DNA from: a virus
Reading direction: 5' to 3' (one strand)
Length of the DNA stretch: 22,133 nt
Virus record (IMG/VR): IMGVR_UViG_3300006790_000128
Span: 1 to 22,133 of that record
Shown here: in pieces, positions 4,112 to 21,217 of the stretch
Numbering within the stretch: the first letter of the stretch is position 1
Layout: each line of letters opens with the position of its first letter
Translations under genes and position numbers: made by a program
Notes under the pieces: generated by a model
What the model was told of the DNA's origin: nothing
The model's input: only the letters and a program-made list of their open reading frames with translations
The model's database searches: none

Positions 4112-4121
4112 TAAATAAACC

Positions 4122-4152: not shown

Positions 4153-4168
4153 ATAAGGAGTAATAACT

Positions 4169-4777
4169 ATGGCAAATAGAAACACAGCAGGTTTTGGTTT
4201 GATCGCTCAAGGGACAGTTGGTTCTACACCAGCTACTCAAGGTCAAGGCAAATACTACATAGACGCTGGGTACAACCAAGACTTATTCCAAGGTGCTACT
4301 GTCAGAATGAAAGACGGTTACATCGTGGAGGCGTCAAGTACTCGAACGTTCTTAACAATAGGTGTGTTTAACGGTATCTTCTACAATGCGGCAACTACAC
4401 AGAAGCCGACGTGGGCGAACTGGTACAACCAACCTATTACTCCGGCTAACAGTGAAGATGTTACATGTTTTGTAATAGACAATCCATTCCAACTTTTTGT
4501 TGGTTCAACTTCTGCAGCAGTTACACAGGCAAATGTCGGTAGAACTGTATCTTTCGCAGCAGCTGTCCCTACAGGAAGTGAAATTTCTGGACAATGTTCT
4601 AATACAATGGATATTGGTAACATCCACGATACCAACAATCAGTGGAGAATCATAAGAAACGCTGAAGACCCTGAAAACAATGACCAAACAGCAGCTTACT
4701 GCTCAATGGTTTTTGCTCAGAACTTAGGTCAGTACTTATGTAACTCAGCTACTGCTGGTAACGACTGGACAATATAA
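4169..4777 (+). CDS. Probable capsid decoration or head structural protein
   Basis: This encodes 202 residues, starting at ATG 4169 after a strong AAGGAG. It is rich in Thr, Ala, Asn, Gly and aromatic residues, with beta-type alternation and no charged coil, like a virion surface protein. Segments such as ANRNTAGFGLIAQGTVGSTP and GVFNGIFYNAATTQKPTWAN recur in proteins placed directly before the capsid gene in marine phages. Five Cys are spread through it, and possible disulphides cannot be judged. Being immediately upstream of the major capsid gene (12 bases) and downstream of the scaffold favours a decoration or stabilising protein. A head fibre or minor head protein is an alternative. Confidence 0.6.
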   Translation: MANRNTAGFGLIAQGTVGSTPATQGQGKYYIDAGYNQDLFQGATVRMKDGYIVEASSTRTFLTIGVFNGIFYNAATTQKPTWANWYNQPITPANSEDVTCFVIDNPFQLFVGSTSAAVTQANVGRTVSFAAAVPTGSEISGQCSNTMDIGNIHDTNNQWRIIRNAEDPENNDQTAAYCSMVFAQNLGQYLCNSATAGNDWTI

Positions 4778-4789
4778 TAGGAGCATAAT

Positions 4790-8747: not shown

Positions 8748-8749
8748 TT

Positions 8750-9481
8750 ATGGCATATAGTTATTCAGATTTAACAACAGATATTAGAAATTGGACAGAA
8801 GTAGATGCAAATGTATTTACTGCTGCTGTTATAAATGGATTTCTTCGTAATGCTGAACACAGAATTAATTTAGATCTTCCTATGGATTCTGATAGAATCA
8901 TGGCACAGGGTCAGTTTGCTCAAAATTTTAATAGTATTACAGTTCCAGCAGGAACTTTATTTGTAAGAGGTGTACAAGTTTTTAATTCTACAACTGCTAC
9001 TACAGAACAAGGTTTTTGGTTGGAAAGACGAGATCAAACTTTCATTACTGAATATGTAGGCGAAGCTACAGGACCTTCGGGAGGTCAAGCAGCACAAAAC
9101 GTTAAAGGTTTACCTAAATATTATTCTATGTTTGGAGGAGCTACAACAGGTACAAGCACAGCTACTTCTGGAGCTATTTATGTAGCCCCTACACCAGATC
9201 AAAATTATCAATATATTATTCATTATAATGCTATGCCTTCTGGTTTAGAAACTGAGACAGCTGGGACATATATTAGTAATTATTTCCCTCAAGGACTACT
9301 CTATGCTTGTTTATGTGAGGCATATTCTTTTTTAAAAGGTCCAACAGATATGTTGACATTATACGAGCAAAAGTATAAAACTGAACTACAAAAGTTTGCA
9401 GCGATGCAAATTGGAAGAAGAAGACGAGACGATTACACGGATGGTACATTAAGAATTCCAATCGAGTCACCGCCTCAGTAA
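8750..9481 (+). CDS. Second adaptor-like tail/neck protein (gp11/SU10-adaptor type)
   Basis: The 243-residue protein begins with a helical domain (YSDLTTDIRNWTEVDANVFT, then INGFLRNAEHRINLDLPMD). A beta-rich centre follows, and a long C-terminal helix (YEQKYKTELQKFAAMQIGRR) ends in RRRRDDYTDGTLRIP. The helical head, beta domain and RRRRDDY tail recur in neck or adaptor proteins of marine podoviruses. The layout resembles the adaptor ring proteins of the T7 gp11 and SU10 type. Two adaptor-like proteins (here and at 7129) may form successive rings below the portal. The start follows the previous stop by two bases without a clear ribosome binding site, suggesting coupling. Confidence 0.6.
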   Translation: MAYSYSDLTTDIRNWTEVDANVFTAAVINGFLRNAEHRINLDLPMDSDRIMAQGQFAQNFNSITVPAGTLFVRGVQVFNSTTATTEQGFWLERRDQTFITEYVGEATGPSGGQAAQNVKGLPKYYSMFGGATTGTSTATSGAIYVAPTPDQNYQYIIHYNAMPSGLETETAGTYISNYFPQGLLYACLCEAYSFLKGPTDMLTLYEQKYKTELQKFAAMQIGRRRRDDYTDGTLRIPIESPPQ

Positions 9482-9496
9482 TAGGAGAAAAACATT

Positions 9497-9937
9497 ATGG
9501 CAATAACATCAGCAATTTGTAACAGCTTCAAAACAGAAGTTCTACAGGGCATTCATAATTTTACTGCTTCCTCTGGAAACACATTTAATCTAGCTCTATA
9601 CACAAGTTCAGCTACATTAAATAAATCAACAACAGCCTACAGCGCTACAAACGAAATATCTAATACATCAGGTTCAGCTTATTCTGCAAAAGGAAAAGCA
9701 CTTACAAGTGTAACTCCTGCATTATCAACTGACACTGCGTGTTGTGACTTTGCAGATGTGTCTTGGACTTCAGCATCGTTTACAGCGAACGGTTGTTTGA
9801 TATTTAATGATTCAGCAGCAGGTGATCCAGCAGTATGTGCGATCGCTTTTGGTGGAGATAAAACAGTTTCTTCAGGAACTTTTACAATTCAATTCCCAGT
9901 AGCAGACGCAAGTAACGCGATCATCAGAATAGCGTAA
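9497..9937 (+). CDS. Small tail structural protein, unknown role
   Basis: This encodes 146 residues with beta-rich composition. The N-terminal pattern AITSAICNSFKTEVLQGIHN, followed by FNLALYTSSATLNKSTTAY, is common in phage tail-region proteins. The rest is Ser/Ala/Thr-rich strands with paired Cys (DTACCDF) and a hydrophobic C-terminal strand. The ribosome binding site TAGGAG (9482-9487) is good. The position between adaptor-like and fibre-like proteins suggests a tail or fibre-base protein. Many relatives are annotated only as structural, and no enzyme motif is visible. Confidence 0.6.
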   Translation: MAITSAICNSFKTEVLQGIHNFTASSGNTFNLALYTSSATLNKSTTAYSATNEISNTSGSAYSAKGKALTSVTPALSTDTACCDFADVSWTSASFTANGCLIFNDSAAGDPAVCAIAFGGDKTVSSGTFTIQFPVADASNAIIRIA

Positions 9938-9951
9938 AGGAGTAACGCGGT

Positions 9952-11430
9952 ATGTCCGTTACTAAAACCTTTACAGTAACGGTTGTTAGCACCGGTTCCG
10001 GTAACAAATATGTTATCGATGGTGTACAACAAGACACTGTTATTTTAGGTGAAGGCGGTACGTATAGATTTGATCAATCGGCCGCTTCTAATAGTACTCA
10101 CCCTCTTTTATTTTCTACAACTGACGACGGGACACATGGTGGTGGTTCAAATTATACAACCGGTGTAACTACAGTTGGAACTCCAGGAAATGCAGGAGCC
10201 TACACTCAAATTGTCGTAGCAGATCCTGCACCACAACTTTATTATTGGTGTCTTAACCATCCTGGAATGGGTGGACAAGCAAACACCGTTCCAATGGATC
10301 AAGCTACTTCAGTCTGGGGTGGAAATAGTCCTTCAGTAGCTTGGAATGTAAACTCATGGCAATCTAACTCAATGACAATGACCTTAACAGGTCAAAGTTC
10401 AACATCAAGTATAGGTACAGTTCAAGCTTATCCTGAATCAGGATGGGGTTCTGACACTTGGGGAATGGAAAACTGGGGAGAAAGCTCAGTTGATGTTTAT
10501 CCAACAGGTTTTGGTTTAACTTCATCAATAGGAACTCTAGATGTTTATGCTTCAAATGGTTGGGGCCGACAACAATGGGGCAACTCTGCGTGGGGAGAAG
10601 AATATTCTGTTTTATTATCAGGTTTCAGTTTAACTTCTAGTATTGGAACAGTAATTGCTGAAGAATTTGTACAAGTAGATATAACAGCACCAGCAGGTTT
10701 AACTTCTTCAGTAGGTGATCCAATCACTGGACAAATTACTTTTGTAAATCCAACAGGTCAACAAGCTCAAACAGAACTTGGTGATTTTGATAATGCTGGT
10801 ACTATGGTTGGTTGGGGTAGAAATGGTTGGGGTGAAGAACCATATGGAGATTCTTGGAATAAACTTGTTCAACCTGCCGGACTTTCTTCAGTTTCTAGTG
10901 TAGGATCTATTACTCCTGCACAATTTGCATTTGGTTTAACAGGTGTAGAAGCTACAAGTTCTGTTGGTACTTTAGGATTAGAATTTGGAGCAAGCACAGA
11001 ACCTATAACAGGTGTAAGTGCAACATCTAGCACGGGTAATATATCAATAGGTATAGGAGTTCCATTAACCGGGGTTAGTGCGCTATCTAGCACGGGTGAT
11101 ATATCAATAGGTATAGGAGTTCCATTAACTGGTGTAGAGGCCACTTCAGAAATAGGTGAAGTAGAACAATCTTCTTCTCCTATTATACAACCAACTGGCT
11201 ATGGTTTAACCTCTTCAACAGGAACATTTACTATCGATGATATGCAGATAGGTTTAACTGGTTTAAGTACTACTTCTACAGTAGGATCACTAACTATTCC
11301 AGATGCTACTATTGGCTTAACTGGTCAAGAACTTCAAATAAGTCTTAATGGTCCTGGAATTAGTCCTCTATATTACAGAAAATTAACACCTAAAACTAGC
11401 ACAGGATATACTATAAAAACACCTGCATAA
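9952..11430 (+). CDS. Tail protein with cupredoxin-like domain and Gly/Trp and TSSxG repeats
   Basis: The 492-residue protein has three parts. Residues about 1-112 form a plastocyanin-like (cupredoxin) beta barrel with the four type 1 copper ligands in the right order: His50 (in STHPLLFS) and Cys100, His103 and Met106 (in YYWCLNHPGMGG). Residues about 120-300 contain repeated Trp/Gly motifs (GWGSDTWGMENWG, NGWGRQQWGNSAWGEE, GWGRNGWGEE) alternating with LTSSIGT strands. Residues about 305-465 are repeats of about 20 residues of the type LTGVSATSSxGxISI, including an in-frame 60-bp tandem duplication. Repeats of this kind occur in phage fibres. The domain could bind copper or be a structural relic of the fold. 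Role: a tail spike or fibre component, inferred from repeats and position. Confidence 0.7.
   Translation: MSVTKTFTVTVVSTGSGNKYVIDGVQQDTVILGEGGTYRFDQSAASNSTHPLLFSTTDDGTHGGGSNYTTGVTTVGTPGNAGAYTQIVVADPAPQLYYWCLNHPGMGGQANTVPMDQATSVWGGNSPSVAWNVNSWQSNSMTMTLTGQSSTSSIGTVQAYPESGWGSDTWGMENWGESSVDVYPTGFGLTSSIGTLDVYASNGWGRQQWGNSAWGEEYSVLLSGFSLTSSIGTVIAEEFVQVDITAPAGLTSSVGDPITGQITFVNPTGQQAQTELGDFDNAGTMVGWGRNGWGEEPYGDSWNKLVQPAGLSSVSSVGSITPAQFAFGLTGVEATSSVGTLGLEFGASTEPITGVSATSSTGNISIGIGVPLTGVSALSSTGDISIGIGVPLTGVEATSEIGEVEQSSSPIIQPTGYGLTSSTGTFTIDDMQIGLTGLSTTSTVGSLTIPDATIGLTGQELQISLNGPGISPLYYRKLTPKTSTGYTIKTPA
11007..11126 (+). repeat. 60-bp tandem duplication, two copies, in-frame
   Basis: Bases 11007-11066 and 11067-11126 are near-identical copies differing at a handful of positions, concentrated in the first third of the unit. 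The last 40 bases or so differ at a single position (AAT/GAT in the TCTAGCACGGGT...CCATT part). Each copy encodes 20 residues of the TGVSA(T/L)SSTG(N/D)ISIGIGVP type. A third, diverged unit begins at 11127. The 60-base period preserves the frame, so copy number can change without breaking the protein. Confidence 0.85.
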
Positions 11431-11495: not shown

Positions 11496-12194
11496 ATGGC
11501 ATCATCATATTCTACAGACCTCAAACTAGAATTAATGGCTACTGGTGAAAACGCTGGTACTTGGGGTGATAAAACTAATACAAACTTAAATCTTGTTCAA
11601 CAAGCAGTTGCTGGTTATCAAGCAATCGATTGTGCATCTTCAGATGTTGCTCTTGTAATGACTGATGCAACTATTTCAAATGCAAGAAATGCAACTTTAA
11701 AATTAACAGGCACATTAGCTGCAAACAGAAACGTAACTATTCCTGACAGTATTGAAAAAGTCTATAACATTGTAGATGGAACTGACCACGCAGGATACAC
11801 TTTAACTTTTAAAACAGCATCAGGTACAGGTGTACTTTTATGCGAAGGCAATAACTACGTAGTATATGCTGATGGAACTAACGTTGTAAAACTTACTGAA
11901 GAAAGAGTTTGGAGAACTGTAACTGCAGCAGAAACTGTTCAAGCAGGTGCTAAACTTTTTGTAGACACAAATGGTGGAGCAGTAACAGTTACGCTACCTG
12001 CCTCGCCAGCTGTTGGTGATGTAGTAAATTTTGTAGATTCAAGATATACGTTTGATTCAAATGCATTGACTGTTGGAAGAAATAGTTCTAAAATAGCAAA
12101 TGCAAGTTCGGACTTAGTAGTTAATACAGAAGGTGCTGCATTTGGACTAGTTTATTCTGGTGCGAACGTAGGATGGACTTACACGGAGAAATAA
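11496..12194 (+). CDS. Tail fibre-type structural protein
   Basis: The 232-residue protein starts with SYSTDLKLELMATGENAGTW and continues GDKTNTNLNLVQQAVAGYQ, a start block shared by many fibre or tail proteins of marine phages. The rest is beta-rich, with a block near residues 160-230 (VTVTLPASPAVGDVVNFVDS, NTEGAAFGLVYSGANVGW) that recurs as a C-terminal module of fibres. The TGENAGTWGDKTN motif probably serves trimerisation or attachment, by analogy only. The ribosome binding site is weak, and a promoter-like sequence lies just upstream. The stop is one base before the next ATG, so it is co-translated with the collar-domain protein. Confidence 0.7.
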   Translation: MASSYSTDLKLELMATGENAGTWGDKTNTNLNLVQQAVAGYQAIDCASSDVALVMTDATISNARNATLKLTGTLAANRNVTIPDSIEKVYNIVDGTDHAGYTLTFKTASGTGVLLCEGNNYVVYADGTNVVKLTEERVWRTVTAAETVQAGAKLFVDTNGGAVTVTLPASPAVGDVVNFVDSRYTFDSNALTVGRNSSKIANASSDLVVNTEGAAFGLVYSGANVGWTYTEK

Positions 12195-12195
12195 T

Positions 12196-12768
12196 ATGTC
12201 AAATTACGAAGCAACTAAATACGATTTTTCAGGAGCAGACCTTACAGGTATCGAAGGAATTCCTACGGCAACTATTGTACCATGGACAACTGCATCTATA
12301 CCAACAGGGTACTTAGAATGTGATGGCGCAGCAGTTTCACGATCAACTTATTCTGCTTTGTTTGCAATAATAGGTACAACTTACGGAGCTGGAGATGGTG
12401 CATCAACTTTTAATGTTCCTAATTTAGCGGACAACGTAGCAGTTTCAAAATCAAACAATAAGGCTTTAGCATCAACTGGAGGAGCTAACACTGTAGCTTC
12501 AACTGGAAACGTTGGAGGATCTACAGCTAACGCAAGTTTATCAACAGCGCAACTTGCTAATCACTCACACAACATGCCGAGTGGTCCTGGACCATGGGGT
12601 GGTGGTGGATCCAACAATACTACTCAACAACCTGGTGGTTCTGCAAGAAACACAGGTGATGCTGGTAGTGGTCAAGGTCACTCTCACAACATGAGTGCAA
12701 CTTTTACTGGTGATGCAACTTCAGTATTGCAACCTTATTTAACAGTGGTATATATAATTAAGACGTAG
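12196..12768 (+). CDS. Tail collar domain fibre protein
   Basis: This 190-residue protein carries a Phage_Collar domain (residues about 25-85). The signature IVPWTTASIPTGYLECDGAA is followed by a RSTYSALFAIIGTTYGAGDG block and FNVPNLADN. The remainder is Gly/Ser/Asn-rich with two short His-rich motifs (NHSHNMPSG and GHSHNMSATF). It ends in QPYLTVVYIIKT, the usual end of this microcystin-dependent-protein-like family. Members are found at tips of short tail fibres (for example T4 gp12), where His-rich motifs can hold metal ions in the trimer. This is probably a receptor-binding tip. GGAG (12184-12187) precedes the ATG. Confidence 0.85.
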   Translation: MSNYEATKYDFSGADLTGIEGIPTATIVPWTTASIPTGYLECDGAAVSRSTYSALFAIIGTTYGAGDGASTFNVPNLADNVAVSKSNNKALASTGGANTVASTGNVGGSTANASLSTAQLANHSHNMPSGPGPWGGGGSNNTTQQPGGSARNTGDAGSGQGHSHNMSATFTGDATSVLQPYLTVVYIIKT

Positions 12769-12775
12769 GAGATTT

Positions 12776-13156
12776 ATGGCAACAAATGCACAATGGACAG
12801 TAATATTCGATGACAAGCTAATTCAAAAAAATTATGCTGAGAATAAATGGCATATAATTGATGACGCTTCTTTTTGGGCGAATCCAGCTTATTCAAATTT
12901 TTGGGCTGTTCAGTATGGTACAAGTGTAGCAACTGATGAAGTAGAATACAGAGATGAAACTCCTCACTCTACTTGGGCCGACACAGGTGAAAATTTTCAA
13001 TTGTTTATAGATAAATGGGATGAAGCTCATTTAGCATTCTTACAACAAGAATGGGATGAAGCTCCAGGAAATGCATCTACTGGTGTTCTATATGAATCTG
13101 AAGCAGATAAAATAGCTGACAGAGGACCAAGACCTACATCTTACTCTTCTTCATAG
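12776..13156 (+). CDS. Conserved-type tail-region protein, unknown function
   Basis: This 126-residue, acidic protein is rich in Trp and aromatic residues. It includes WTVIFDDKLIQKNYAENKWH, FWAVQYGTS, DEVEYRDETPHSTWADTGEN and a helix FIDKWDEAHLAFLQQEW, and ends RGPRPTSYSSS. The WTVxFDDK...NxWAxQYGTS...DEVExRDETPHxTW...FIDKWDxAHL pattern recurs next to tail fibre genes in marine phages, where it has no named function. A fibre chaperone or small tail protein is a reasonable guess. The ribosome binding site AGGAG (12766-12770) lies at the end of the upstream gene. Its last 23 bases overlap, tail to tail, with the last gene of the minus-strand operon. Confidence 0.65.
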   Translation: MATNAQWTVIFDDKLIQKNYAENKWHIIDDASFWANPAYSNFWAVQYGTSVATDEVEYRDETPHSTWADTGENFQLFIDKWDEAHLAFLQQEWDEAPGNASTGVLYESEADKIADRGPRPTSYSSS

Positions 13157-13622
13157 TATTAAAAGAAACCACTAATCTTTCTTCGTCTGAATCAAGTTTT
13201 TTTACTTGGTGAGGAATATCTGAAGGAAATAATAATAATTTATTTTTTTTAAATTCATAAGAATAAGAACCAAACGATCTGTCATAAAACAGAGTAGGAC
13301 TTTCCCCTTGTATATAGATTATACCCGAATAATCAGAACCTATATGTGTATGCACATCATGAGAATCATCTTTATTATATAATTGAGCCCAATTATTACG
13401 CAATAATAATTCATGACTATCTAATATAGCTATAATTTGTTGTTTAAGATTTTTTAAAATTGGAAAGTTTAAAACATTTAAATATTGATATGTATTTTTT
13501 TGTTCATTGGTTTGAACATCTTTAACTAAAAATAAAATTTGATTAATGTCATCTACAGATATCTCTAAATCATATTCATAGAATGCGTTTTGATACTCAA
13601 ATGGATCAAAAGAATTAGACAC
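13134..13622 (-). CDS. 2-oxoglutarate/Fe(II) oxygenase-like, HxH type (last gene of operon)
   Basis: The 162-residue protein resembles the small 2OG-Fe(II) oxygenase group of the PF13759 type, which couples oxidation of a substrate C-H bond to decarboxylation of 2-oxoglutarate. Visible features are WAQLYNKDDSHDVHTHIGSD with His91 and His93, SGIIYI on the next strand, FPSDIPHQV with distal His138, and ERLVVSFN with Arg149 in the 2OG-binding position. The usual HxD is HTH here. In this group the H-x-H...SGxxYx pattern is normal, so it is probably active, but the metal triad should be checked. The start is GTG 13620-13622, overlapping the upstream gene by 8 bases. No ATG is available. It is the last gene before the convergent tail gene. 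The substrate is unknown. Confidence 0.7.
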   Translation of the reverse strand: MSNSFDPFEYQNAFYEYDLEISVDDINQILFLVKDVQTNEQKNTYQYLNVLNFPILKNLKQQIIAILDSHELLLRNNWAQLYNKDDSHDVHTHIGSDYSGIIYIQGESPTLFYDRSFGSYSYEFKKNKLLLFPSDIPHQVKKLDSDEERLVVSFNTMKKSKM

Positions 13623-14232
13623 TTCGTAAATTCATCCAAGAAGTTGCAATATATTTTTCACCGGATAGCGGTGAATTTCCTCTATGAACATAGGGAAAAG
13701 CTGCAGGCCAAATAACTATTCTACCTGTTTTAGGTTTTACTCTTTTTGAAAAATGTAAAAACTCTGTTTCTCCACCTTCTTCAACATCGTTTAAATAAAT
13801 AGTATAAACCAAAGCTCTAGGTTCATTATGAAAGCCACGACCATGTTCTACATGCCATACATGATAACCTTCAGTAGGTAATGTTTTCTGTATTTTTATA
13901 CAAGTATAGTATAAATCATTTTGATCATATGCATGACAGACACCTGTGTTTTCAATATAATGTTTTAAAGCTATATCGAAATTAGCTAGCATAACTTTTA
14001 AGTCTTCATGCCAGACTACAACATTTAAATGATTACAGAACAACTGTTGATCCTGTTTATATAAAACAGAAGCTTGTTCATAAGACTGTCTATTCATAGT
14101 TTTTTCAAACTTATCTTGGTGTTCAAATAGTTCGATAGCTCTTTTACATTCTTGTTCTGTAATATAGCCATCATAGACTCCAATAAAATTATTAAGACTT
14201 ACTTCTTTTTTTTGATTAAGCTTTTCCATCAT
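13615..14232 (-). CDS. 2-oxoglutarate/Fe(II) oxygenase-like, HxE type
   Basis: This 205-residue protein has a helical N-terminal half and a prolyl-4-hydroxylase-like barrel. EGYHVWHVEHG (residues 121-131) gives His127-x-Glu129, followed by LVYTIYLNDVEEGGETEF, PKTGRIVIWPAAFPYVHRGN with distal His183, and SGEKYIATSWM, where Lys193 stands where Arg or Lys binds the 2OG C5 carboxylate. YLNDVxEGGETEF...FPxxHRGxxPxSGxKYxxTSW is a clear family pattern also seen in cyanophage oxygenases. Glu in place of Asp in the facial triad is found in some active members. Start codons are ATG 14232 or ATG 14229, and the gene overlaps its upstream neighbour by 17 bases. Substrate is unknown: protein, nucleic acid and small-molecule substrates occur in the superfamily. 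Confidence 0.8.
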   Translation of the reverse strand: MMEKLNQKKEVSLNNFIGVYDGYITEQECKRAIELFEHQDKFEKTMNRQSYEQASVLYKQDQQLFCNHLNVVVWHEDLKVMLANFDIALKHYIENTGVCHAYDQNDLYYTCIKIQKTLPTEGYHVWHVEHGRGFHNEPRALVYTIYLNDVEEGGETEFLHFSKRVKPKTGRIVIWPAAFPYVHRGNSPLSGEKYIATSWMNLRSV

Positions 14233-14776
14233 TTTCTTTCAATATTAATCTATTGTCTAATAACCAAGTCACAACGACTTCTCTTGAACTTCCTGAGTTA
14301 TTATTACAATAATGTTCATAACAATCATGAGGTAAGAATGCGACTAGTTTACCTTTCTCTGTTTTAATATGTTTATCATGTCTTGGAAATATTAAATCTG
14401 CATTAGGGTTATTAGTTAAATGTATTACAGTAGATAATACTCTAGGAAAACCTGGCAATTCATTTGCTATTCCATCACCATGAATATTTAAATTATCGTT
14501 TTCACCATATCTATGAAACGTAAAACCACTATCTTGTAGTCTTGATAGATCTAATTTAAAATCAAATTTTAATTTCTTTTCTACTATTTCATTAAACCGT
14601 TTTCTTAATCTATTATCTATATAAACTAATTCTTTTTTATGATCTGAAAACCTCACTGAATTTCCCTGTCTATTAAATTCATATTCTAATGAACTGTCGT
14701 CCATATGAGGATGACATAAATTGCTAATCTCATCACAGAATTGATCAGTAATAAAGTTTTTAAATTCCACAAACAT
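14216..14776 (-). CDS. 2-oxoglutarate/Fe(II) oxygenase-like, HxD type
   Basis: ATG 14776 (minus strand) is chosen because an AAGGAG ribosome binding site lies nine bases upstream. The frame stays open upstream to 14857, inside the halogenase-like gene, but the internal start gives the usual 17-base overlap. The 186-residue product has FTFHRYGENDNLNIHGDG with His99 and Asp101, VLSTVIHLTNNPNADLIFPR on following strands, LVAFLPHDCYEHYC with distal His155, and SSREVVVTWLL with Arg165. That is a complete HxD...H...R set. It differs from the other oxygenases of the operon in its N-terminal half, so it is not a recent duplicate. The target is unknown. Confidence 0.8.
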   Translation of the reverse strand: MFVEFKNFITDQFCDEISNLCHPHMDDSSLEYEFNRQGNSVRFSDHKKELVYIDNRLRKRFNEIVEKKLKFDFKLDLSRLQDSGFTFHRYGENDNLNIHGDGIANELPGFPRVLSTVIHLTNNPNADLIFPRHDKHIKTEKGKLVAFLPHDCYEHYCNNNSGSSREVVVTWLLDNRLILKENDGKA

Positions 14777-15908
14777 AAGTATTGTCTCCTTTCTTATTGA
14801 CTCCATCATACCATAATCTGATATTATAGCTACTCCATAATCCATAACAAATATCAATATTTGTTTTAATTCTTTCTAATAATTCTTCAAAAGGCATATT
14901 TTTAACATGATCTACTACAGCTTTAAAATCTCCCCTTAAATTATTTCTAGCCATTGATTCAGCATGATGCCAAAAAGAAGTTTCATATTTTGAACCATTA
15001 AGATAATGCCACAATATAAAATTCTCTACTTGTTTTACATGTCTATGTACAGTGTTGTTTGTTTCTTCTTTGTTAATTACTTTGTTCATATAATCTGAAT
15101 ATGAAACTGCACATCTATAGTAAGTATCCATGGCTGTTGCTTCTAACGGCTCTAGAAAAAATAATCTATTACCGTTTAACATTACTCTATCATTTACAAC
15201 AGGTTGTTTTTTTACATACTGTTGAAAAGGAAATTTTTTTACTTTATCTACTCCAAGTCTTTCTTGGAAATCTTTTGTTGCTTCTGCCTCTGTTGTAATA
15301 TTTGAATTATATAAATAACCTAAAGATGTTGTATGAGGTAAAGGAATATAGAAACACCACCCATTTGGATGAGCAATTGTTCTAGTCCATTTAACATCAT
15401 CAGGAACACGAGGTAAGTTAGCAAGCAATGCAGTGTTGAGAGGATTCTTTAACATTTCATAGGTATCATCTAAAGCTCCCGGTTTACCTCTACAGTCAAT
15501 AATAAAATCTGAATCTAAAGAATCATATTGCAAAACATGTTCATCTGTTTCTTTCATTTTAATTTTCTTTTTTAATTTACTACATACATAATCTTGAAAT
15601 GCTGCTGGGTGAAAATGAATAGAATGACTAGTTAAAGCAAAGTCATGAAAGATTTTTTCATTTAATTTACCCCAACCCTCATACATAATACCATGCTTCA
15701 TAGTGCATTGAAAATCTGGATCATCTATTTTGTAATGAAATAATTTATGTAAAAGGTTTGGAAATAATAATGTAGTACCTTGTCCTGTAGGTACAGGTTT
15801 TATATTAGAGTCATACAATAACTCTAATTCTATGTTTGGATTAGCATACGCTAAATACATAGCTGTAATACATCCTGCGTTTCCTCTTCCTAATATCGTT
15901 ACTTTCAT
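14760..15908 (-). CDS. Flavin-dependent tryptophan-halogenase-like protein
   Basis: The 382-residue protein (ATG 15908, overlapping the upstream stop as ATGA) resembles PrnA-type flavin halogenases. The N-terminal Rossmann motif is VTILGRGNAGCITA (GxGxxG at 7-12). GQGTTLLFPNLL resembles the GEAT block. A conserved lysine at 71 (QCTMKHGIMYEGW) matches the catalytic Lys of PrnA. NGWCFYIPLPHTTSLGYLY (182-200) resembles the GWxWxIPL block, and FLEPLEATAM (251-260) matches the EPLEST region with Glu256. Halogenases use FADH2, O2 and halide to make HOCl that the Lys holds. It is shorter than PrnA (about 540 residues), and EATA replaces EST-G, so halogenation is uncertain and flavin oxidation of another type is possible. 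A flavin reductase is not seen. Confidence 0.75.
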   Translation of the reverse strand: MKVTILGRGNAGCITAMYLAYANPNIELELLYDSNIKPVPTGQGTTLLFPNLLHKLFHYKIDDPDFQCTMKHGIMYEGWGKLNEKIFHDFALTSHSIHFHPAAFQDYVCSKLKKKIKMKETDEHVLQYDSLDSDFIIDCRGKPGALDDTYEMLKNPLNTALLANLPRVPDDVKWTRTIAHPNGWCFYIPLPHTTSLGYLYNSNITTEAEATKDFQERLGVDKVKKFPFQQYVKKQPVVNDRVMLNGNRLFFLEPLEATAMDTYYRCAVSYSDYMNKVINKEETNNTVHRHVKQVENFILWHYLNGSKYETSFWHHAESMARNNLRGDFKAVVDHVKNMPFEELLERIKTNIDICYGLWSSYNIRLWYDGVNKKGDNTYVCGI

Positions 15909-16432
15909 GGGCAATATATATAATTTAATTTTGAATTAAGTAAAGTATATGTAGCGTCATTAAATGTCTCAACCAATGGCCACCCGGCTAAATTAAAAGA
16001 TGTATTTAACAACAACGGTACTTTAGTTTTTTTATAGAATGCATTTATCAAATCGTAGTAATTAGGATTCTGATCTCTTTTTAAAGTTTGTATTCTACAT
16101 GTGTTATTAACATGTACTACTGCTGGAGTTTCTTGTTTAGCTTTGTCTTTAGCATGAACTGCAAAAGACATAAAAGGAGATTCATCTAGGCTGCCAAAAT
16201 CAAACCAATCATCTTTATGTTCGTGTAAGATAGTAGCTGCTGTAGGTCTCCACCATTGTCGACCTTTTATTTTATTAATAATTTCTTTTGCTTTTTTATT
16301 TCTAGGATCAAATAACATAGATCGATTGCCCAAGGCTCTCGGACCAAACTCAGACGAACCTTGAAATATAACTACAGGTTCTTCTCTTAAAAGTAATTCT
16401 ACAGCTTCTACTTGATTCTTAATTATTCGCAT
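15905..16432 (-). CDS. Carbamoyltransferase C-terminal domain (NodU/TobZ family), separate gene
   Basis: The 175-residue product contains only the C-terminal (YrdC-like) carbamoyltransferase domain. FQGSSEFGPRALGNRSMLFD (23-42) holds the hallmark GPRALGNRS. RQWWRPTAATIL (58-69) and VPLLLNTSFNLAGWPLVETF (138-157) are the usual later blocks, with Trp in place of the common Glu after LAG. In TobZ and NodU this domain makes carbamoyl adenylate from carbamoyl phosphate and ATP. The N-terminal domain is a separate gene at 16907-17791, with a methyltransferase-like gene in between. Start ATG 16432 follows an AGGA-type site and gives a 14-base overlap. An upstream extension inside the other gene is less likely. 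Confidence 0.85.
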   Translation of the reverse strand: MRIIKNQVEAVELLLREEPVVIFQGSSEFGPRALGNRSMLFDPRNKKAKEIINKIKGRQWWRPTAATILHEHKDDWFDFGSLDESPFMSFAVHAKDKAKQETPAVVHVNNTCRIQTLKRDQNPNYYDLINAFYKKTKVPLLLNTSFNLAGWPLVETFNDATYTLLNSKLNYIYCP

Positions 16433-16910
16433 ATTTAATTCCTGTAAATACTGAAGTAATAGTTTCTTGACCATATGTATTAAGCCATCCATAGTCAGTA
16501 CAATTATCACACATCTTTTTTAAATAAAAATAAGCATTAGGGTCCCAGTTTCCATTATCTAAAATAATAGTTTTTTTATAATTAAATTTTTCAATTAAGT
16601 TTTTAGCTACATCTTTTCTTTTGTATGACATAACCTCACTATTATCGATTAGAACATAGTCTACTCCGTCAAGAATATCTGGAAACATATCAAAAGTTAA
16701 TTCATATATAGAAGCATTGTTAGGAAGATTTTCCATCATCTCTAATCTAAATTGATCATTAGATTCTAAAGATATAACTTGTTTAAATATTCTACTAAAA
16801 TAATGAGTAGATCCTCCGCTTCCAAACTCTAATATAATTTTATCTTTAGTATCTTGTTCAGATATCCATTTTAAAAAAGACCAGGTTAATAATGGTGGAC
16901 CTATTCTCAT
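16419..16910 (-). CDS. Class I SAM methyltransferase-like protein
   Basis: This 163-residue protein has a Rossmann-type first half. DKIILEFGSGGSTHYFSRIF contains the motif I loop EFGSGGST, and KQVISLESNDQF carries an acidic residue at the end of the second strand, as needed to bind the ribose of S-adenosylmethionine. VDYVLIDNSEVM (82-93) resembles the strand 4 acidic block, followed by KTIILDNGNW on strand 5. The EFGSGGST...SLExxxxW/F pattern is common in small methyltransferases linked to sugar and lipid tailoring. The gene lies exactly between the two halves of the carbamoyltransferase, with ATGA overlap upstream and 14 bases downstream. Substrate is unknown. A non-catalytic partner of the split enzyme is an alternative. 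Confidence 0.65.
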   Translation of the reverse strand: MRIGPPLLTWSFLKWISEQDTKDKIILEFGSGGSTHYFSRIFKQVISLESNDQFRLEMMENLPNNASIYELTFDMFPDILDGVDYVLIDNSEVMSYKRKDVAKNLIEKFNYKKTIILDNGNWDPNAYFYLKKMCDNCTDYGWLNTYGQETITSVFTGIKYANN

Positions 16911-17791
16911 ATATAATTTGCAACATACATTGCAACTCCTATCGATGTTCCTGCATCATGTGGTATTGGGTCTACAAAAAAATTTATATTAGGATATCTT
17001 TTAACAAGCTTAAAATTATTTAAACAATTTAAAAAGTATCCTCCAGATAAAATAATATTTTTAGCATTAATAAGTTCTGACTTTTCTATTAGTTCACAAG
17101 TTTCAGCGAAGGTTTCTTTTTGAGCTTTATGTGCTAGTTCAACAGCTGTGTAATCTATCTTATCATATTTTTCTTTTACTTCTGCATAAGGAGCTAGTCC
17201 CATGAATTGTCCATACTCTTCACCAAAGCCAGCTTTAATACTAAGGTTAGCATATTTAAGTCCACCTACTATTCTTGAACTAAGTAGTGAATTATTTATG
17301 TCTTTAAATTCTTTATTGAAACAAGTGCTTCTAGCATCAGAGTAATGACCACAAACAAAAGATATGTTATTTTTATTTACATGCCATATAGTATCAGTTT
17401 CTCGATAACTAGGATAAGAAGATGAATGAGCAGCTCCTCCACCATCTCTAACTAATGCCATTGCCTCATCTAAATTAGAATGGTAAAGCCCAGCTATAGC
17501 ATGGTACTTATGATGATTCTCTCTATCAAATGAATAACCTTTATAATCTAATTTATCTAAAATTAATTTTGGTAATTCTTTTTCTGTTCCATCCCAACTA
17601 GTAATAGCAACAAAATCAAAAGAAAAATTTTTAAAAAGATCTAACCCTTTAACTTCATTAAAGGTTTTTATTGTTGGACCAAATCTTTTTTGTTTATTTA
17701 TTCTTTCTTCATTTACAAACATCTTTATTTTAGAGTCTTCTATAAAGCAGTAAGACATGTGGTGTGATATGTTAATTCCTAATATTCTCAT
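16907..17791 (-). CDS. Carbamoyltransferase N-terminal domain (NodU/TobZ family), separate gene
   Basis: This 294-residue product matches the Kae1-like (ASKHA) N-terminal domain. RILGINISHHMSYCFIEDSK is the usual start, and NEERINKQKR follows. NHHKYHAIAGLYHSNLDEAM supplies the metal motif His93-x3-His97, followed by ALVRDGGGA. QFMGLAPYA, NIILSGGYFLNCLNN and FFVDPIPHDAGTSIGVAMY follow, the last with Asp279 as third metal ligand. All expected motifs of this domain are visible. It ends where full-length relatives continue to the C-terminal domain (at 15905-16432 here). Relatives transfer carbamoyl groups to hydroxyls of antibiotics, Nod factors or, in some phages, modified nucleotides. ATGA overlaps join it to genes on both sides. 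Confidence 0.88.
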   Translation of the reverse strand: MRILGINISHHMSYCFIEDSKIKMFVNEERINKQKRFGPTIKTFNEVKGLDLFKNFSFDFVAITSWDGTEKELPKLILDKLDYKGYSFDRENHHKYHAIAGLYHSNLDEAMALVRDGGGAAHSSSYPSYRETDTIWHVNKNNISFVCGHYSDARSTCFNKEFKDINNSLLSSRIVGGLKYANLSIKAGFGEEYGQFMGLAPYAEVKEKYDKIDYTAVELAHKAQKETFAETCELIEKSELINAKNIILSGGYFLNCLNNFKLVKRYPNINFFVDPIPHDAGTSIGVAMYVANYI

Positions 17792-18321
17792 TTGATAAAC
17801 ATTTGAATAGAAACTCTAGGCATTATTGGACTTAAAACAGGATTAACTTTATGGTTAATAGGAGCTTTTATAATTATTAAAGAATTTCCTACAACAGGAA
17901 TAAAGCCATGACCGTTTTTACTATGGAACATAAGTTCTCCACCATGCTGTCTATTCCATCTACGATTAACATAAAAGGTAGCGCCATACTTCCAGATATT
18001 ATCATCATGCCAATTAATACCTGAACCTTTTTTCATAAAATGAATATTAGTTGACATTTCTTTTACATCTTTAAGTTGATAAAATTGATTAAGACGAGTT
18101 AAAACTTTTAATTTTTCAAAAGGAGCGTAGTTAGAAACAGTTACTCTTTCAGGGGGTACGATGTTATTGATTAAATCATCGTCCCATATACCTTTAGATG
18201 AGTGTAAGTTTATTGAGGCACGTTGTTTAAAAATAGCATTATGAATACCTTGATATGTTTCTTGATCTAAGAAATTTTGTATATAATACAATTGGTCGGG
18301 TATTTGGTATATCAATTTCAT
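17788..18321 (-). CDS. 2-oxoglutarate/Fe(II) oxygenase-like, HxD type
   Basis: This encodes 177 residues from ATG 18321, which overlaps the upstream TGA (ATGA). The frame is open further upstream, but this start gives the same tight coupling as the other operon genes. The barrel shows NIHFMKKGSGINWHDDNIWK with His105 and Asp107, YGATFYVNRRWNRQHGGELM, IIIKAPINHKVNP with distal His157, and PRVSIQMFIK with Arg169. This is a complete HxD...H...R set of the prolyl-4-hydroxylase-like type, here with the common FYxNxxWxxxxGGEL strand pair. The N-terminal part is a helical extension (YQIPDQLYYIQNFLDQETYQ). The function is hydroxylation or another 2OG-driven oxidation of an unknown substrate. Confidence 0.82.
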   Translation of the reverse strand: MKLIYQIPDQLYYIQNFLDQETYQGIHNAIFKQRASINLHSSKGIWDDDLINNIVPPERVTVSNYAPFEKLKVLTRLNQFYQLKDVKEMSTNIHFMKKGSGINWHDDNIWKYGATFYVNRRWNRQHGGELMFHSKNGHGFIPVVGNSLIIIKAPINHKVNPVLSPIMPRVSIQMFIK

Positions 18322-18929
18322 TTTGGAAACCCATCGTGTTTTGAGTGTAGAAAACAATTAATAGCATAACGAGTGCCTTTGGTAATAGGCTCTGTTCCGT
18401 GTATCCATATAGGTTCAGCAGGAAATATCATAGCATCCCCGGTCTTATAAGACTCTTTTATTCTGCCATTAAAGAATGTAAAATCTCCTCCTTCATAGTC
18501 TTCATTTAAATTTAAAGTACAAGATCCTCGAGTTCTCCAATCTACATCAGTATGGTCTTTGATATATTGTCCTTCTTCATATCTTAGTATTCTTACGTTT
18601 TGACTAGCGTTTAAATTATGGTCAGTAAAAGATGGACATATTCCTTTAGCCTTAATATATAATACATAATTAGCTATCATAATGTTAATAAATTGAGAGG
18701 CCGTTTCTAAAGCCCACTTAATATCTTCATTAGGATTTAGGGTTCGAGAAAGATTTATACATTGGAAATTATCTACTTCTCTTTTATCAGTCTCATACTT
18801 ATAGCTTTCTTCAGTAAGATATAATTCAGGGTATTTTTCAAATACTTCTATTAATTTTTGACAGATATTCTTAGGAACTAATCCATTAATCCTATATTTT
18901 AGATCCGATATTTTGTGCTCATAAGCCAT
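18318..18929 (-). CDS. Prolyl-4-hydroxylase-like 2-oxoglutarate/Fe(II) oxygenase (first gene of operon)
   Basis: The 203-residue product from ATG 18929 has a helical N-terminal half and a clear P4H-type barrel. VRILRYEEGQYIKDHTDVDW contains His126 and Asp128, and CTLNLNEDYEGGDFTFF is the usual LNxxxxGGxFxF strand pair. YKTGDAMIFPAEPIWIHGTE contains distal His177, and KGTRYAINCFLHS contains Arg187 for 2OG binding. Every catalytic residue is present, so it is likely active. The open frame extends to 18971, but a promoter-like sequence occupies that part, which favours the inner ATG. As first gene of the operon it may be the most highly made. Substrates of relatives include prolyl residues and free amino acids; here it is unknown. 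Confidence 0.85.
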   Translation of the reverse strand: MAYEHKISDLKYRINGLVPKNICQKLIEVFEKYPELYLTEESYKYETDKREVDNFQCINLSRTLNPNEDIKWALETASQFINIMIANYVLYIKAKGICPSFTDHNLNASQNVRILRYEEGQYIKDHTDVDWRTRGSCTLNLNEDYEGGDFTFFNGRIKESYKTGDAMIFPAEPIWIHGTEPITKGTRYAINCFLHSKHDGFPK

Positions 18930-18959
18930 TAGATTGTATCTTTCATTCTCTATATATTT

Positions 18960-18987
18960 AATATATAACATAAATCATATATTTCAA
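18960..18987 (-). promoter_or_regulatory. Candidate promoter of the minus-strand operon
   Basis: On the minus strand, TTGAAA (18987-18982), a 16-base spacer and TATATT (18965-18960) match sigma-70 boxes at five of six positions each. The site lies about 30 bases upstream of the chosen ATG 18929 and next to the divergent + strand gene starting at 18998. The region is very AT-rich, so chance matches are possible. Confidence 0.45.
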
Positions 18988-18997: not shown

Positions 18998-21217
18998 ATG
19001 TTACAGAAATTAGGATTTTTACCAGGCTTTAACAAACAAGTAACACCTACAGGAGCTGAATCACAGTGGACCGGAGGTGAAAACGTTCGTTTTAGATATG
19101 GTACACCTGAAAAAATAGGTGGTTGGAATCAACTAGGAACTAGTAAATTAACTGGTGCGGTTAGAGCAATCCATCATATGGTTAATAGAGATGGTATTAA
19201 ATATGCTCTTTTAGGATCTAATAGAATTTTATATGTATATTCTGGAGGTGTGTATTATGACATACATCCTTTAGTTAATCCATCAGGAACAGCACAAACA
19301 AATTTTTTTAGTACGACTAATGGACAACCTACAGTCACACTTAATTTTTCCTCAGCACATGGTTTTCTAGCAGGTGATATTATATTATTTGGAGATTCAT
19401 CTACATTTAGTTCTATCACTAATTCTAATTTTGTAGCTTCTGATTTTGCCGATAAAAAATTTATGATTACTTCGGTTCCAAATCCAACATCAGTTACTAT
19501 TACAATGCCTTCTAATGAAACAGGTACAGGAGCTTCTACATCAGGAGGTATTACTTATTATCGATATTATCATGTAGGACCAGCAGACCAGGTTGGAGTC
19601 TATGGTTTTGGTATATCTCAATGGGGTGGTACAGTTCCTAATCCTCAAACTACTACACTAAACGGAGCATTAAATGCCGATGCCTTTGGAACTGGTGGAT
19701 CAGGAACTACAATTAATGTAGCCAGCACAGCTGGATTTCCATCTACTGGTACGAATTATTTTCAAGTAGGCTCGGAAGAAATTTCTTACACAGGTACGAC
19801 AGCGACTAGCTTTACTGGAATTACCAGAAACGTACGAGGAACAACAAACGCTGCTCACAGTAATGGAGCAACTGTTACCAATACCAGTGACTACGCAGCA
19901 TGGGGTCAAGCAGCATCGACCACGGATAAAGTGGCTGAACCTGGTTTATGGTCTATAGATAATTTAGGAAGCACAGCTATTGCTTTAATTTGTAATGGTG
20001 CATGTTTTGAATGGGACGCTGATAGTATTAATGCAACACAAACCAGAGCAACAATTATATCTGGTGCACCAACAGCATCAAGGGATATGTTAGTTTCAAC
20101 TCCCGACCGTCACTTAGTATTTTTTGGAACTGAAACAACTATTGGAGACACAACAACACAAGATGATATGTTTATTAGATTCTCCTCTCAAGAAAATATA
20201 AATGATTATACACCTACAGCAACCAATAGTGCTGGTACACAAAGACTGGCCGCCGGATCACGGATCATGGGAGCTAAACTTGGTAGAAATGCTATTTATG
20301 TTTGGACAGATACTTCTTTATTTACCATGCGTTTTGTTGGTCAGCCATTTACTTTCGCATACGAACAAGTAGGAACTAACTGTGGATTGATTGGAAAAAA
20401 TGCAGCTGTTGAAGTTGATGGTGCTGCGTATTGGATGTCTGAAAATGGTTTCTTTAGATTTACTGGTAAACTAGAATCTATGGACTGTTTAGTTGAAGAC
20501 TATATTTATGATGATCTTAATACTACATCTAATCAAATGGTTTATGCAGGAATCAATAACTTGTTTGGTGAAGTTGTTTGGTTTTATCCTACTGCAGATT
20601 CAAATGTTAATACCAGATCAGTGACTTATAGTTATCTAGATTCTACAGCTAAACGACCTATATGGTTTACTAATGCTAGTTCATTATACACTAGAACAAC
20701 TTGGCAAGATTCGGCTGTCTTTGGTTTACCTCATGCAACACAATACGATGCCAGCGCGCATACATCTTTTGACGTAACTGGAAACACTGACGGTATTTCA
20801 TATTACTATGAACATGAAACAGGAGTTAATCAAGTTAGAGGTGGAACTACAACAGCTATACCGGCTAACATTACTTCTGGAGACTATGACATCACACAAA
20901 AAGTTATTAGAGGAGCAGCAACTAACATGGCTGACCTTAGAGGTGATGGAGAAAATATTATGAGGGTTAGTAGAATTATTCCTGACTTTATAAACCAAAC
21001 TGGAAACGCAATTATTCAATTAGATCTAAGAAATTATCCTAATAATACTGCAGCTAGCTCATCATTAGGGCCATTTACAGTGACAACTTCTACAAGCAAA
21101 GTAGATACACGAGCCAGAGCTAGAGCAATTGCTCTAACAATATCCAATACTGCAGTGGATACTACTTGGAAATTAGGAACTTTTAGGTTAGATATACAAG
21201 CTGGAGGAAGAAGATAA
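18998..21217 (+). CDS. Tail nozzle/stabilisation protein (P22 gp10/T7 gp12-like)
   Basis: The 739-residue protein is the largest in the window. It begins LPGFNKQVTPTGAESQWTGG and continues ENVRFRYGTPEKIGGW, the typical start of podovirus tail nozzle (tail tubular protein B) and DNA-stabilisation proteins. Long beta-rich regions follow, with propeller-like strands (DRHLVFFGTE, AIYVWTDTSLFTMRFVG, YWMSENGFFRFTGKLE). A small module near residues 235-295 (QVGSEEISYTGTT...TRNVRGTTNAAHSNGATV) is shared with the protein at 7932 and looks inserted. It would form the lower tail tube that plugs DNA exit. The start follows AAAGG (18986-18990). It is separated from the other tail genes by the minus-strand operon, and its stop overlaps the next gene (TAATG). 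Confidence 0.75.
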   Translation: MLQKLGFLPGFNKQVTPTGAESQWTGGENVRFRYGTPEKIGGWNQLGTSKLTGAVRAIHHMVNRDGIKYALLGSNRILYVYSGGVYYDIHPLVNPSGTAQTNFFSTTNGQPTVTLNFSSAHGFLAGDIILFGDSSTFSSITNSNFVASDFADKKFMITSVPNPTSVTITMPSNETGTGASTSGGITYYRYYHVGPADQVGVYGFGISQWGGTVPNPQTTTLNGALNADAFGTGGSGTTINVASTAGFPSTGTNYFQVGSEEISYTGTTATSFTGITRNVRGTTNAAHSNGATVTNTSDYAAWGQAASTTDKVAEPGLWSIDNLGSTAIALICNGACFEWDADSINATQTRATIISGAPTASRDMLVSTPDRHLVFFGTETTIGDTTTQDDMFIRFSSQENINDYTPTATNSAGTQRLAAGSRIMGAKLGRNAIYVWTDTSLFTMRFVGQPFTFAYEQVGTNCGLIGKNAAVEVDGAAYWMSENGFFRFTGKLESMDCLVEDYIYDDLNTTSNQMVYAGINNLFGEVVWFYPTADSNVNTRSVTYSYLDSTAKRPIWFTNASSLYTRTTWQDSAVFGLPHATQYDASAHTSFDVTGNTDGISYYYEHETGVNQVRGGTTTAIPANITSGDYDITQKVIRGAATNMADLRGDGENIMRVSRIIPDFINQTGNAIIQLDLRNYPNNTAASSSLGPFTVTTSTSKVDTRARARAIALTISNTAVDTTWKLGTFRLDIQAGGRR

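Follow-up and report, generated by a model that had tools for sequence, protein, structure and literature searches.

A modular island of predicted tailoring enzymes linked to tail-fibre type in HTVC023P/027P-type phages

The window analysed here, a 22,133-bp fragment of virus record IMGVR_UViG_3300006790_000128, carries at 13134-18929 nine open reading frames on the minus strand, each overlapping the next, surrounded by plus-strand late genes. According to Pfam and PHROG searches and AlphaFold modelling, five of the products are 2OG-Fe(II) oxygenases and one is a compact flavin halogenase; two are the halves of a split O-carbamoyltransferase of the TobZ type, and the ninth has a class I methyltransferase fold. 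The nine-gene minus-strand operon in the tail module claimed by the initial annotation was borne out by the reading frames, the Pfam matches and the AlphaFold fold of P6. GC content is approximately 29.5% within the nine-gene block and approximately 37% around it. Five mechanically called reading frames were shortened to their likely true starts (P9 at 18929, P8 at 18321, P5 at 16432, P4 at 15908 and P3 at 14776), the methionine start of P5 being set by comparison of the L009/L011 junction. The features are listed below.

11496..13156, plus strand: upstream flank (type A fibre set) of a tail/fibre-like protein, a tail-collar protein and the small protein g12776; PHROG tail/collar matches
13134..13622, minus strand: P1, PF13759-type oxygenase; PF13759 E 3e-11, above cut-off
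13615..14232, minus strand: P2, 2OG-Fe(II)/prolyl-4-hydroxylase-like oxygenase, core gene in fibre type A loci; PF13640 E 4e-11 (above cut-off), phrog_61 E 2e-45
14216..14776, minus strand: P3, 2OG-Fe(II) oxygenase, with AAAGGAG ahead of the gene; PF13640 E 1.6e-4 (23 bits, just under the 27-bit cut-off), phrog_61 E 9e-17
14760..15908, minus strand: P4, predicted compact (382 aa) flavin-dependent halogenase; PF04820 (Trp_halogenase) E 6e-36
15905..16432, minus strand: P5, C-terminal half of an O-carbamoyltransferase; PF16861 (Carbam_trans_C) E 2e-55, PDB 7xb6 E 4e-31
16419..16910, minus strand: P6, class I SAM-dependent methyltransferase fold, encoded between the two halves of the carbamoyltransferase; AlphaFold pLDDT 90.2
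16907..17791, minus strand: P7, N-terminal (Kae1-like) half of a TobZ/NodU-type O-carbamoyltransferase; PF02543 (Carbam_trans_N) E 1e-10, phrog_1601 E 8e-38
17788..18321, minus strand: P8, 2OG-Fe(II) oxygenase, OxE subfamily; PF13640 E 5e-8, above cut-off
18318..18929, minus strand: P9, 2OG-Fe(II) oxygenase that opens the operon, beginning MAYEHK at 18929; PF13640 E 3e-11, above cut-off
18940..18967, minus strand: conserved 28-nt cassette leader TATATATTAAATATATAGAGAATGAAAG, present once in the window
18960..18987, minus strand: promoter-like site TTGAAA, 16 nt, TATATT, from a consensus scan only
18998..21217, plus strand: downstream flank, virion structural ('stabilization', stab) protein; phrog_3287 E 3e-94

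No PHROG match was obtained for g12776. The leader heads minus-strand cassettes regardless of their first gene, with up to 4 mismatches, and a scan of plus-strand cassette loci gave no match to it. Most relatives retain the TTGAAA stretch of the promoter-like site; L003 and L012 have it in altered form. A terminator scan returned no site fitting the operon end. The operon is probably transcribed from its own promoter.

The HxD/E...H iron triad and the arginine or lysine for 2OG are present in P2, P3, P8 and P9 and invariant across orthologues: H127xE129, H183 and K193 in P2 (15 sequences), H126xD128, H182 and R192 in P3 (7 sequences, numbered on the longer reading frame), H117xD119, H169 and R181 in P8 (10 sequences), and H140xD142, H191 and R201 in P9 (11 sequences). 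P1 reads HxH...H...R, HxH replacing HxD, in comparison with one orthologue, HTVC027P gp72, to which it is 57% identical. The closest PDB matches to P2 are prolyl-4-hydroxylases, a family with protein substrates. The pelagiphage 'ferrochelatases', such as those of phrog_2954, also resemble 2OG-type oxygenases.

In P4, the flavin site G7xG9xxG12 and residues K71 and E256 are invariant in 41 sequences aligned with solved halogenases, and K71 and E256 correspond to the catalytic lysine and glutamate of PrnA (K79 and E346). The P4 model (pLDDT 88) aligned with 5lv9 at Z 39.3 (354 residues at 2.9 A), with tryptophan halogenases at Z of approximately 39 and with MibH, a lanthipeptide halogenase, among others. 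At the WxWxIP fingerprint P4 reads WCFYIP, with an invariant F186 instead of the second tryptophan. Despite this change, the modelled fold and predicted catalytic residues place P4 in the flavin-dependent halogenase superfamily. VirX1 (PDB 6qgm; Gkotsi et al. 2019) shares the fold, at Z 31, and the catalytic lysine and glutamate, but has 531 aa and WxWxIP where P4 has 382 aa and WxFxIP; the sequence match is weak (E 2e-14), and P4 is not close enough to VirX1 in sequence and size to belong to a VirX1-like subgroup. Other cyanophage PrnA-like halogenases also share the fold and the two catalytic residues. Compact cyanophage relatives are 36-38% identical to P4, and some related halogenases lie near head genes and not in the tail island. 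A host-derived biosynthetic cluster was set aside on a single genome-contig scan, which recovered only three compact-halogenase relatives, at 34-38% identity, in Poribacteria, Chloroflexi and Euryarchaeota MAGs, none with a carbamoyltransferase or the oxygenase set beside it; the genes may nonetheless have a cellular source.

P7 and P5 together supply the parts of a TobZ/NodU-type enzyme, a Kae1-like N-domain with the HxxxH metal site (HHxxH motif, with H93, H94 and H97 invariant) and a Carbam_trans_C domain. Both domains are shared with TobZ, NodU, GdmN and the 5hmC carbamoyltransferase (PMC8670742), whereas in the window the enzyme is split into two genes with the methyltransferase gene in between. 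Enzymes of this type usually, though perhaps not by definition, have both domains in one chain; two reading frames are found in the P2-P9 loci, in most with P6 between the halves, and long forms of 499-543 aa occur in L038, L074 and L107. At TobZ positions 408/421/423, with numbering inferred from an ungapped motif, P5 has I/G/R (RALGNR), the proven 5hmC enzyme I/C/T (RALCNT) and TobZ W408/G421/R423, so that P5 differs from the 5hmC enzyme at 421 and 423. P6 had no confident Pfam family; its best Foldseek matches were SAM methyltransferases (E 7e-6) and the glycine-rich motif I, EFGxGxST, is conserved. The model thus indicates a class I SAM methyltransferase fold of a substrate class not assignable from the Foldseek matches, which are scattered over RNA, small-molecule and other methyltransferases.

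P2-P9 were found in the same order in five further genotypes, one of them without the methyltransferase, giving six genotypes with the window; nucleotide identity of the other five to the window is 77-93%. No other contig with the halogenase block has P1, which makes the eight genes P2-P9 the recurring unit. Estimates of dN/dS were 0.08-0.38 for P2-P9 against the five relatives, indicating purifying selection, and 0.51 for P1 against its one relative. These ratios, the invariant triad residues and the repetition of P2-P9 in independent contigs show the operon to be more than a chance arrangement. An assembly artefact or degenerate genes were rejected, as the same order and both flanks recur in independent contigs and the P2-P9 ratios are well below 1. 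PADLOC returned only a generic '2OG' model, with nothing for P1 and P4-P7, and an anti-phage defence system was also set aside.

In this lineage the island lies between the fibre genes and the stab gene. Among 34 fully covered relatives, the interval between the fibre genes and the next virion gene holds a median of four oxygenases, with halogenase, carbamoyltransferase, sulfotransferase and methyltransferase as optional genes; one sulfotransferase in the island forms a single protein with an Asp/Asn hydroxylase domain. The tail module of HTVC023P/027P-type phages thus holds a modular tailoring island that is exchanged horizontally. The window shows one of its configurations, and the island looks like an interchangeable kit. 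The initial annotation had proposed a joint pathway on one target, which would be unlikely if homologues occurred only as scattered single genes. The gene-order search in related phages found the block in six genotypes, and this conservation ruled out the scattered-gene explanation. P2-P9 do travel together; a single fixed pathway is unproven, because for each of P1, the methyltransferase, the halogenase and the carbamoyltransferase there are relatives without the gene.

SAR11 are the ocean's most abundant bacteria. By sequence, the contig is related to the HTVC027P/HTVC023P-type pelagiphages that infect them: it shares with HTVC027P the virion module order tail11496, collar, g12776, P1 and P2, and its stab is 45-46% identical to those of HTVC027P, HTVC023P and 023Pt_psg01. 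HTVC027P (MN698241) carries three minus-strand oxygenase genes, gp72-gp74, in precisely this position, with g12776 on one side and stab on the other, behind the same leader; gp72 is orthologous to P1 and gp73 to P2, but P3-P9 are absent, and with them halogenase, carbamoyltransferase and methyltransferase. Wittmers et al. 2022 (PMC9599517) described 2OG-Fe(II) oxygenase 'partner-AMG' clusters in HTVC023P-type pelagiphages, the same lineage, with several non-orthologous 2OG oxygenases co-located. The main text of that article mentions neither halogenase nor carbamoyltransferase, and no fibre-type segregation, minus-strand leader or modular swapping was found in the portion available. Oxygenase clusters in this lineage are therefore already published; the wider enzyme repertoire, the fibre-type linkage and the leader were not found in the literature searched. 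Among T4-like pelagiphages, which have other flanking genes, HTVC008M has an oxygenase cassette in its structural region, with six minus-strand genes, at least four of them annotated as dioxygenases. Also T4-like and differently flanked, the pelagimyophage host-recognition cluster is likewise a hypervariable fibre-bearing island within the structural region; its description, in the portion of PMC7029224 available, stresses glycosyltransferases.

Fibre type could be assigned at 45 loci. P2 was present in 12/12 type A loci and 0/33 of types B and C; three oxygenase subfamilies occurred in all 7 type C loci and in 0/38 others, and one in 19 of the 26 type B loci and 0/19 others. The accessory carbamoyltransferase (CTc) crosses fibre types. 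In types B and C the whole upstream fibre set (11496..13156) gives way to another, and similar stab backgrounds carry types A and B. Whole enzyme sets are exchanged along with fibre genes. The core oxygenases would appear to be dedicated to a single fibre type, with the halogenase, the carbamoyltransferase and the relatives' sulfotransferase as optional decorations. The earlier argument from neighbouring fibre genes was strengthened by this segregation of oxygenase subfamilies with fibre type. Co-transfer by linkage alone could also explain the association, since the genes are adjacent and the loci are not independent.

Our tentative reading, given a probability of roughly 0.4, is that the enzymes act before assembly on tail-fibre/collar proteins of the phage itself and modify them, the tail fibre being the likeliest target. 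P2 and other oxygenases would hydroxylate fibre/collar side chains, the two-chain carbamoyltransferase (P7 and P5) would use carbamoyl phosphate and ATP to carbamoylate some of the hydroxyls so formed, P4 would halogenate aromatic side chains using reduced flavin from the host, and P6 would methylate the target. The outcome would be chemical diversity on, or protection of, the receptor-binding surface, in addition to sequence diversity. This reading is supported by the adjoining fibre genes and the oxygenase subfamilies that follow fibre type, by intact catalytic residues under purifying selection, by the nearness of P2 to enzymes with protein substrates and the alignment of P4 with MibH, by the hydroxylate-then-decorate logic repeated in the sulfotransferase-hydroxylase fusion, and by the HTVC008M cassette, also in a structural region. 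Against it, the likenesses to prolyl-4-hydroxylases and MibH do not fix substrates, an antisense operon with its own promoter-like site might be timed differently from virion proteins, and some related halogenases lie near head genes.

P5 and P7 match solved carbamoyltransferases of the TobZ/GdmN/novobiocin kind, which act on sugars and antibiotics, and this would suit remodelling of host envelope glycans or lipids with O-carbamoyl, methyl and hydroxyl groups, to block superinfection or aid adsorption or release. A glycosyltransferase gene lies downstream of stab in HTVC023P and HTVC027P, and the pelagimyophage island of fibres and glycosyltransferases is read as O-chain modification in the available portion of PMC7029224. 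However, the operon is without a glycosyltransferase or lipid enzyme, aromatic halogenation and several prolyl-4-hydroxylase-like oxygenases fit glycans poorly, and segregation with fibre type would be unexpected unless receptor and fibre change together; we consider an envelope target unlikely. Equally improbable is an accretion hotspot of unrelated auxiliary genes acting on separate metabolites, for example in 2OG/succinate flux or halogenation of free tryptophan. The gene content is highly variable, single parts coming and going, the P4 fold is that of tryptophan halogenases, and Sullivan et al. (PMC3037559) proposed that cyanophage oxygenases have roles in the 2OG pool and in DNA repair; yet eight genes with overlaps and a shared leader keep their order over 77-93% nucleotide identity, and the island strongly favours C-H/O-tailoring chemistry over a random set of metabolic genes.

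Carbamoylation of 5hmC, a candidate in the initial annotation, is disfavoured by the sequence of P5, which is TobZ-like (G421, R423) at two of three discriminating positions, position 408 being isoleucine in both P5 and the proven enzyme. That enzyme is viral (PMC8670742), and thymidine-hypermodification genes occur in some HTVC023P-type clades (PMC9599517, in the portion available), so hydroxymethyl bases might be converted to 5-carbamoyloxymethylcytosine; but the island lies in the tail module, and 5hmC enzymes co-occur with thymidylate synthase, whereas no thymidylate synthase or dCMP hydroxymethylase was noticed in the reading frame list of the 22-kb fragment. DNA or nucleotide hypermodification therefore seems very improbable. 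We give as little credence to a product route, in which the operon would make or tailor a peptide or small molecule, for example a compound bearing halogen and carbamoyl groups and directed against competitors or the host. Natural-product clusters typically hold halogenase, oxygenase, carbamoyltransferase and methyltransferase tailoring enzymes, the kinds found here, but the operon has no evident gene for scaffold building or for a precursor peptide, and there would be little room for such a product during lytic replication in streamlined hosts of the SAR11 kind.

Published work treats the oxygenases of this lineage as metabolic helper genes, whereas the anatomy described here points to a chemical-decoration island tied to fibre type. 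More doubtful than fibre modification in this phage is its extension to marine phages of SAR11-type hosts in general, in which post-translational modification of fibres might be combinatorial and swappable, with hydroxylases particular to each fibre type and optional halogenase, carbamoyltransferase, sulfotransferase or methyltransferase, so that host recognition would be tuned chemically as well as by sequence. The HTVC-type relatives belong to a virus lineage widespread in the ocean. If true, the decoration of fibres would reveal a further level of diversity in how phages bind their receptors, together with a compact halogenase family.

An ORF map placed nine minus-strand genes at 13134-18929, numbered P9 (first in the operon) to P1 (last), within a region of plus-strand virion genes, as the initial annotation had described. 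Fibre-, tail- and collar-like genes lie before the operon, and the virion structural ("stabilization") gene stab lies after it:

11496..13156, plus strand, type A fibre set: tail/fibre-like protein, tail-collar protein and small protein g12776
13134-18929, minus strand, operon P9 to P1
18940-18967, minus strand, conserved 28-nt leader TATATATTAAATATATAGAGAATGAAAG heading minus-strand type A cassettes
18998..21217, plus strand, stab

Adjacent operon genes overlap by a few bases, which is usual for translational coupling. Pfam and PHROGs matches agreed with the families first proposed: P1, P2, P3, P8 and P9 are five 2OG-Fe(II) oxygenases, P4 is a tryptophan-halogenase-family protein, and P5 and P7 supply the C- and N-terminal portions, respectively, of a NodU/TobZ-type carbamoyltransferase. 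The five oxygenases also match PHROGs bearing endonuclease labels. Pfam and PHROGs gave no confident family for P6; its AlphaFold model (pLDDT 90) has a predicted class I methyltransferase fold, in keeping with the methyltransferase-like protein claimed earlier. The operon is AT-rich (GC ~29.5% versus ~37%), as such tailoring genes are generally: across 82 loci their mean GC was 28.6%, and that of stab 36.7%.

The iron triad and 2OG-binding residue are invariant in orthologues of P2 (HxE...H...K) and of P3, P8 and P9 (HxD...H...R); P1 has HxH in the triad, with one orthologue only for comparison. HHxxH is kept in P7, and the Carbam_trans_C motifs of 7xb6 in P5. The flavin glycines and catalytic Lys (K71) and Glu (E256) of P4 are kept in 41 sequences, with WxFxIP in P4 versus the halogenase WxWxIP. 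The P4 model aligns with tryptophan halogenases at Z 39 across ~355 residues and with VirX1 at Z 31, and P4 is 100-150 residues shorter than these matches. Comparison with five relatives gave dN/dS of 0.08-0.38 for P2-P9, with P4, P5 and P6 having the lowest values, and comparison with HTVC027P gave 0.51 for P1.

The window, a virus fragment of 22 kb, encodes a stab protein 45-46% identical to those of pelagiphages HTVC027P and HTVC023P, and of 023Pt_psg01. In HTVC027P the site of the operon holds three minus-strand oxygenase genes, beginning with gp72 and gp73, the respective orthologues of P1 and P2. When related phages were checked for the same gene order, as the initial annotation had proposed, P2-P9 was repeated in contigs L006/L007, L008, L009 (without the methyltransferase), L011 and L012, and in part in L010, L014 and L015. 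Cassettes of relatives were 77-93% identical to that of the window. The cassette has been transferred from one phage background to another, because L012 and the window share 47-87% identity in cassette genes but only 35-41% in stab. L009 (5640-5720) and L011 (5205-5760) differ cleanly by the methyltransferase gene, which was gained or lost where start and stop codons overlap in ATGA; the sequences flanking the junction on the two sides are alike (TATATATGA / TAAATATGA). This suggests that genes are shuffled at short stretches of shared sequence.

A promoter-like pair, TTGAAA-16-TATATT, precedes the first gene of minus-strand type A cassettes. The leader heads minus-strand cassettes in L003, L006, L008, L009, L011, L012, L016, L041, L048, L051, L083 and L086, and scanning of plus-strand cassette loci gave no match to it; it occurs once in the window and in none of the shuffles. 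Both elements are also present in HTVC027P, and they precede the cassettes whichever gene comes first. The leader stays put when the genes that follow it are exchanged. In several loci, ATGAAAG inside the leader begins a mini-ORF, just a few codons long, that overlaps the next start.

Genes between the fibre genes and stab were classified in 80 contigs chosen by stab, to which the P2-P9-related loci above were added. This interval is filled with oxygenases from several families, with a median of four (range 0-8) in the 34 loci bounded at both ends; the single zero-oxygenase locus, L002, has its oxygenases just past the boundary used. The bounded loci also held halogenase (8), carbamoyltransferase (6), methyltransferase (5) and sulfotransferase-family (3) genes. 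Carbamoyltransferases were either long (499-543 aa) or split, and only some of the split ones have P6 between their halves. Sulfotransferase-family proteins lie in the tail islands of L085, L052 and L072, and at least one (L085) carries a fused aspartyl/asparaginyl beta-hydroxylase domain. A second search found compact halogenases (43-97% identity) in 80 contigs, mostly in the tail module, with an oxygenase adjoining 61 of 86 copies; in some contigs they lie upstream of tail protein g8750, near head genes. L126, L137, L154 and L162 have theirs at this second site, away from the fibre island. A compact-halogenase relative (38% identity; L183:8001-9095) lies on a contig from a Poribacteria MAG, where the other genes include ABC-transporter-like, PhyH-like and flagellin-like ones, and is possibly a cellular relative. 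The T4-like pelagiphage HTVC008M has dioxygenase genes in two regions, 1622-4901 and 8418-10377, with a six-gene, dioxygenase-rich minus-strand cassette ahead of the neck genes; a phytanoyl-CoA-dioxygenase gene paired with a halogenase gene adjoins the terminase genes.

The "ferrochelatase" family (phrog_2954; 52 proteins, including L004:8289-8906, L098:2028-2669 of HTVC008M and L002:10054-10707) had no Pfam match, ferrochelatase included. HxD...H plus Arg is invariant in all 52 members. Its profile matched two 2OG families at 92-94% probability over ~146 columns, with non-oxygenase controls at ~1% or less, and did not match two other island oxygenase families (9% and <1%). The protein is probably another 2OG-type oxygenase, so the published pairing of ferrochelatase with oxygenase may have arisen from misannotation. 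L002:8313-8792, labelled "DNA endonuclease V" (phrog_274), had a weak 2OG-oxygenase Pfam match only and belongs among the oxygenases.

Loci were assigned to type A (collar plus g12776), B or C by their upstream fibre genes, and oxygenase subfamilies were defined by 50% identity linkage. The P2 subfamily occurred in 12/12 type A loci and 0/33 of types B or C. Three other subfamilies were confined to type C (7/7; 0/38 elsewhere), and one to type B (19/26; 0/19 elsewhere). The "ferrochelatase"-like family is common to types B and C, and the accessory carbamoyltransferase passes from type A to type B. Tailoring genes were 73 minus versus 1 plus in type A, and 147 plus versus 6 minus in types B and C. 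Types A and B are both paired with stab genes ~80-86% identical to that of the window; together with the segregation, this indicates that fibre genes are exchanged along with their core oxygenases. The original argument for a fibre target from neighbouring fibre genes thereby gains support, not proof, since linkage alone could produce such segregation and the loci are non-independent.

One published account describes co-located 2OG oxygenases and "ferrochelatase" partners in HTVC023P-type phages (PMC9599517). Seasonal viruses are enriched in such oxygenases (PMC11561400), a hypervariable island for host recognition is described in pelagimyophages (PMC7029224), and halogenases, carbamoyltransferases and oxygenases have long been known in cyanophages as separate genes (PMC3037559). 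No description of the gene set, the fibre-type link or the leader was found in the literature searched, which lay mostly outside subscription journals.

DNA modification, such as carbamoylation of 5-hydroxymethylcytosine (5hmC), had been listed as a candidate. DNA-modifying carbamoyltransferases are best told apart from the others by TobZ positions W408, G421 and R423, and thymidylate synthase co-occurs with the proven 5hmC type (PMC8670742). The P5 motif EFGPRALGNRS is of the TobZ class, whereas the 5hmC enzyme has EFGPRALCNTT. If residue numbers are read off the ungapped motif, P5 is TobZ-like at two of the three positions, because position 408 is I in both P5 and the 5hmC enzyme; this weighs against 5hmC as the target. 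The operon enzymes might instead modify the host envelope, tailor a small molecule or act separately from one another in auxiliary metabolism. Modification of the fibre or collar is most likely, given the location of the operon and the fibre-type segregation, the P4H-like character of P2, a halogenase model whose structural matches include a peptide halogenase, the sulfotransferase-hydroxylase fusion in sister islands and an independent oxygenase cassette in the HTVC008M structural region. Linkage is a confounder, and expression timing possibly differs. On the fibre/collar reading, the oxygenases would hydroxylate fibre or collar side chains, the two-chain carbamoyltransferase would carbamoylate some of the resulting hydroxyls, aromatic side chains would be the halogenase substrate, and P6 would add methyl groups.
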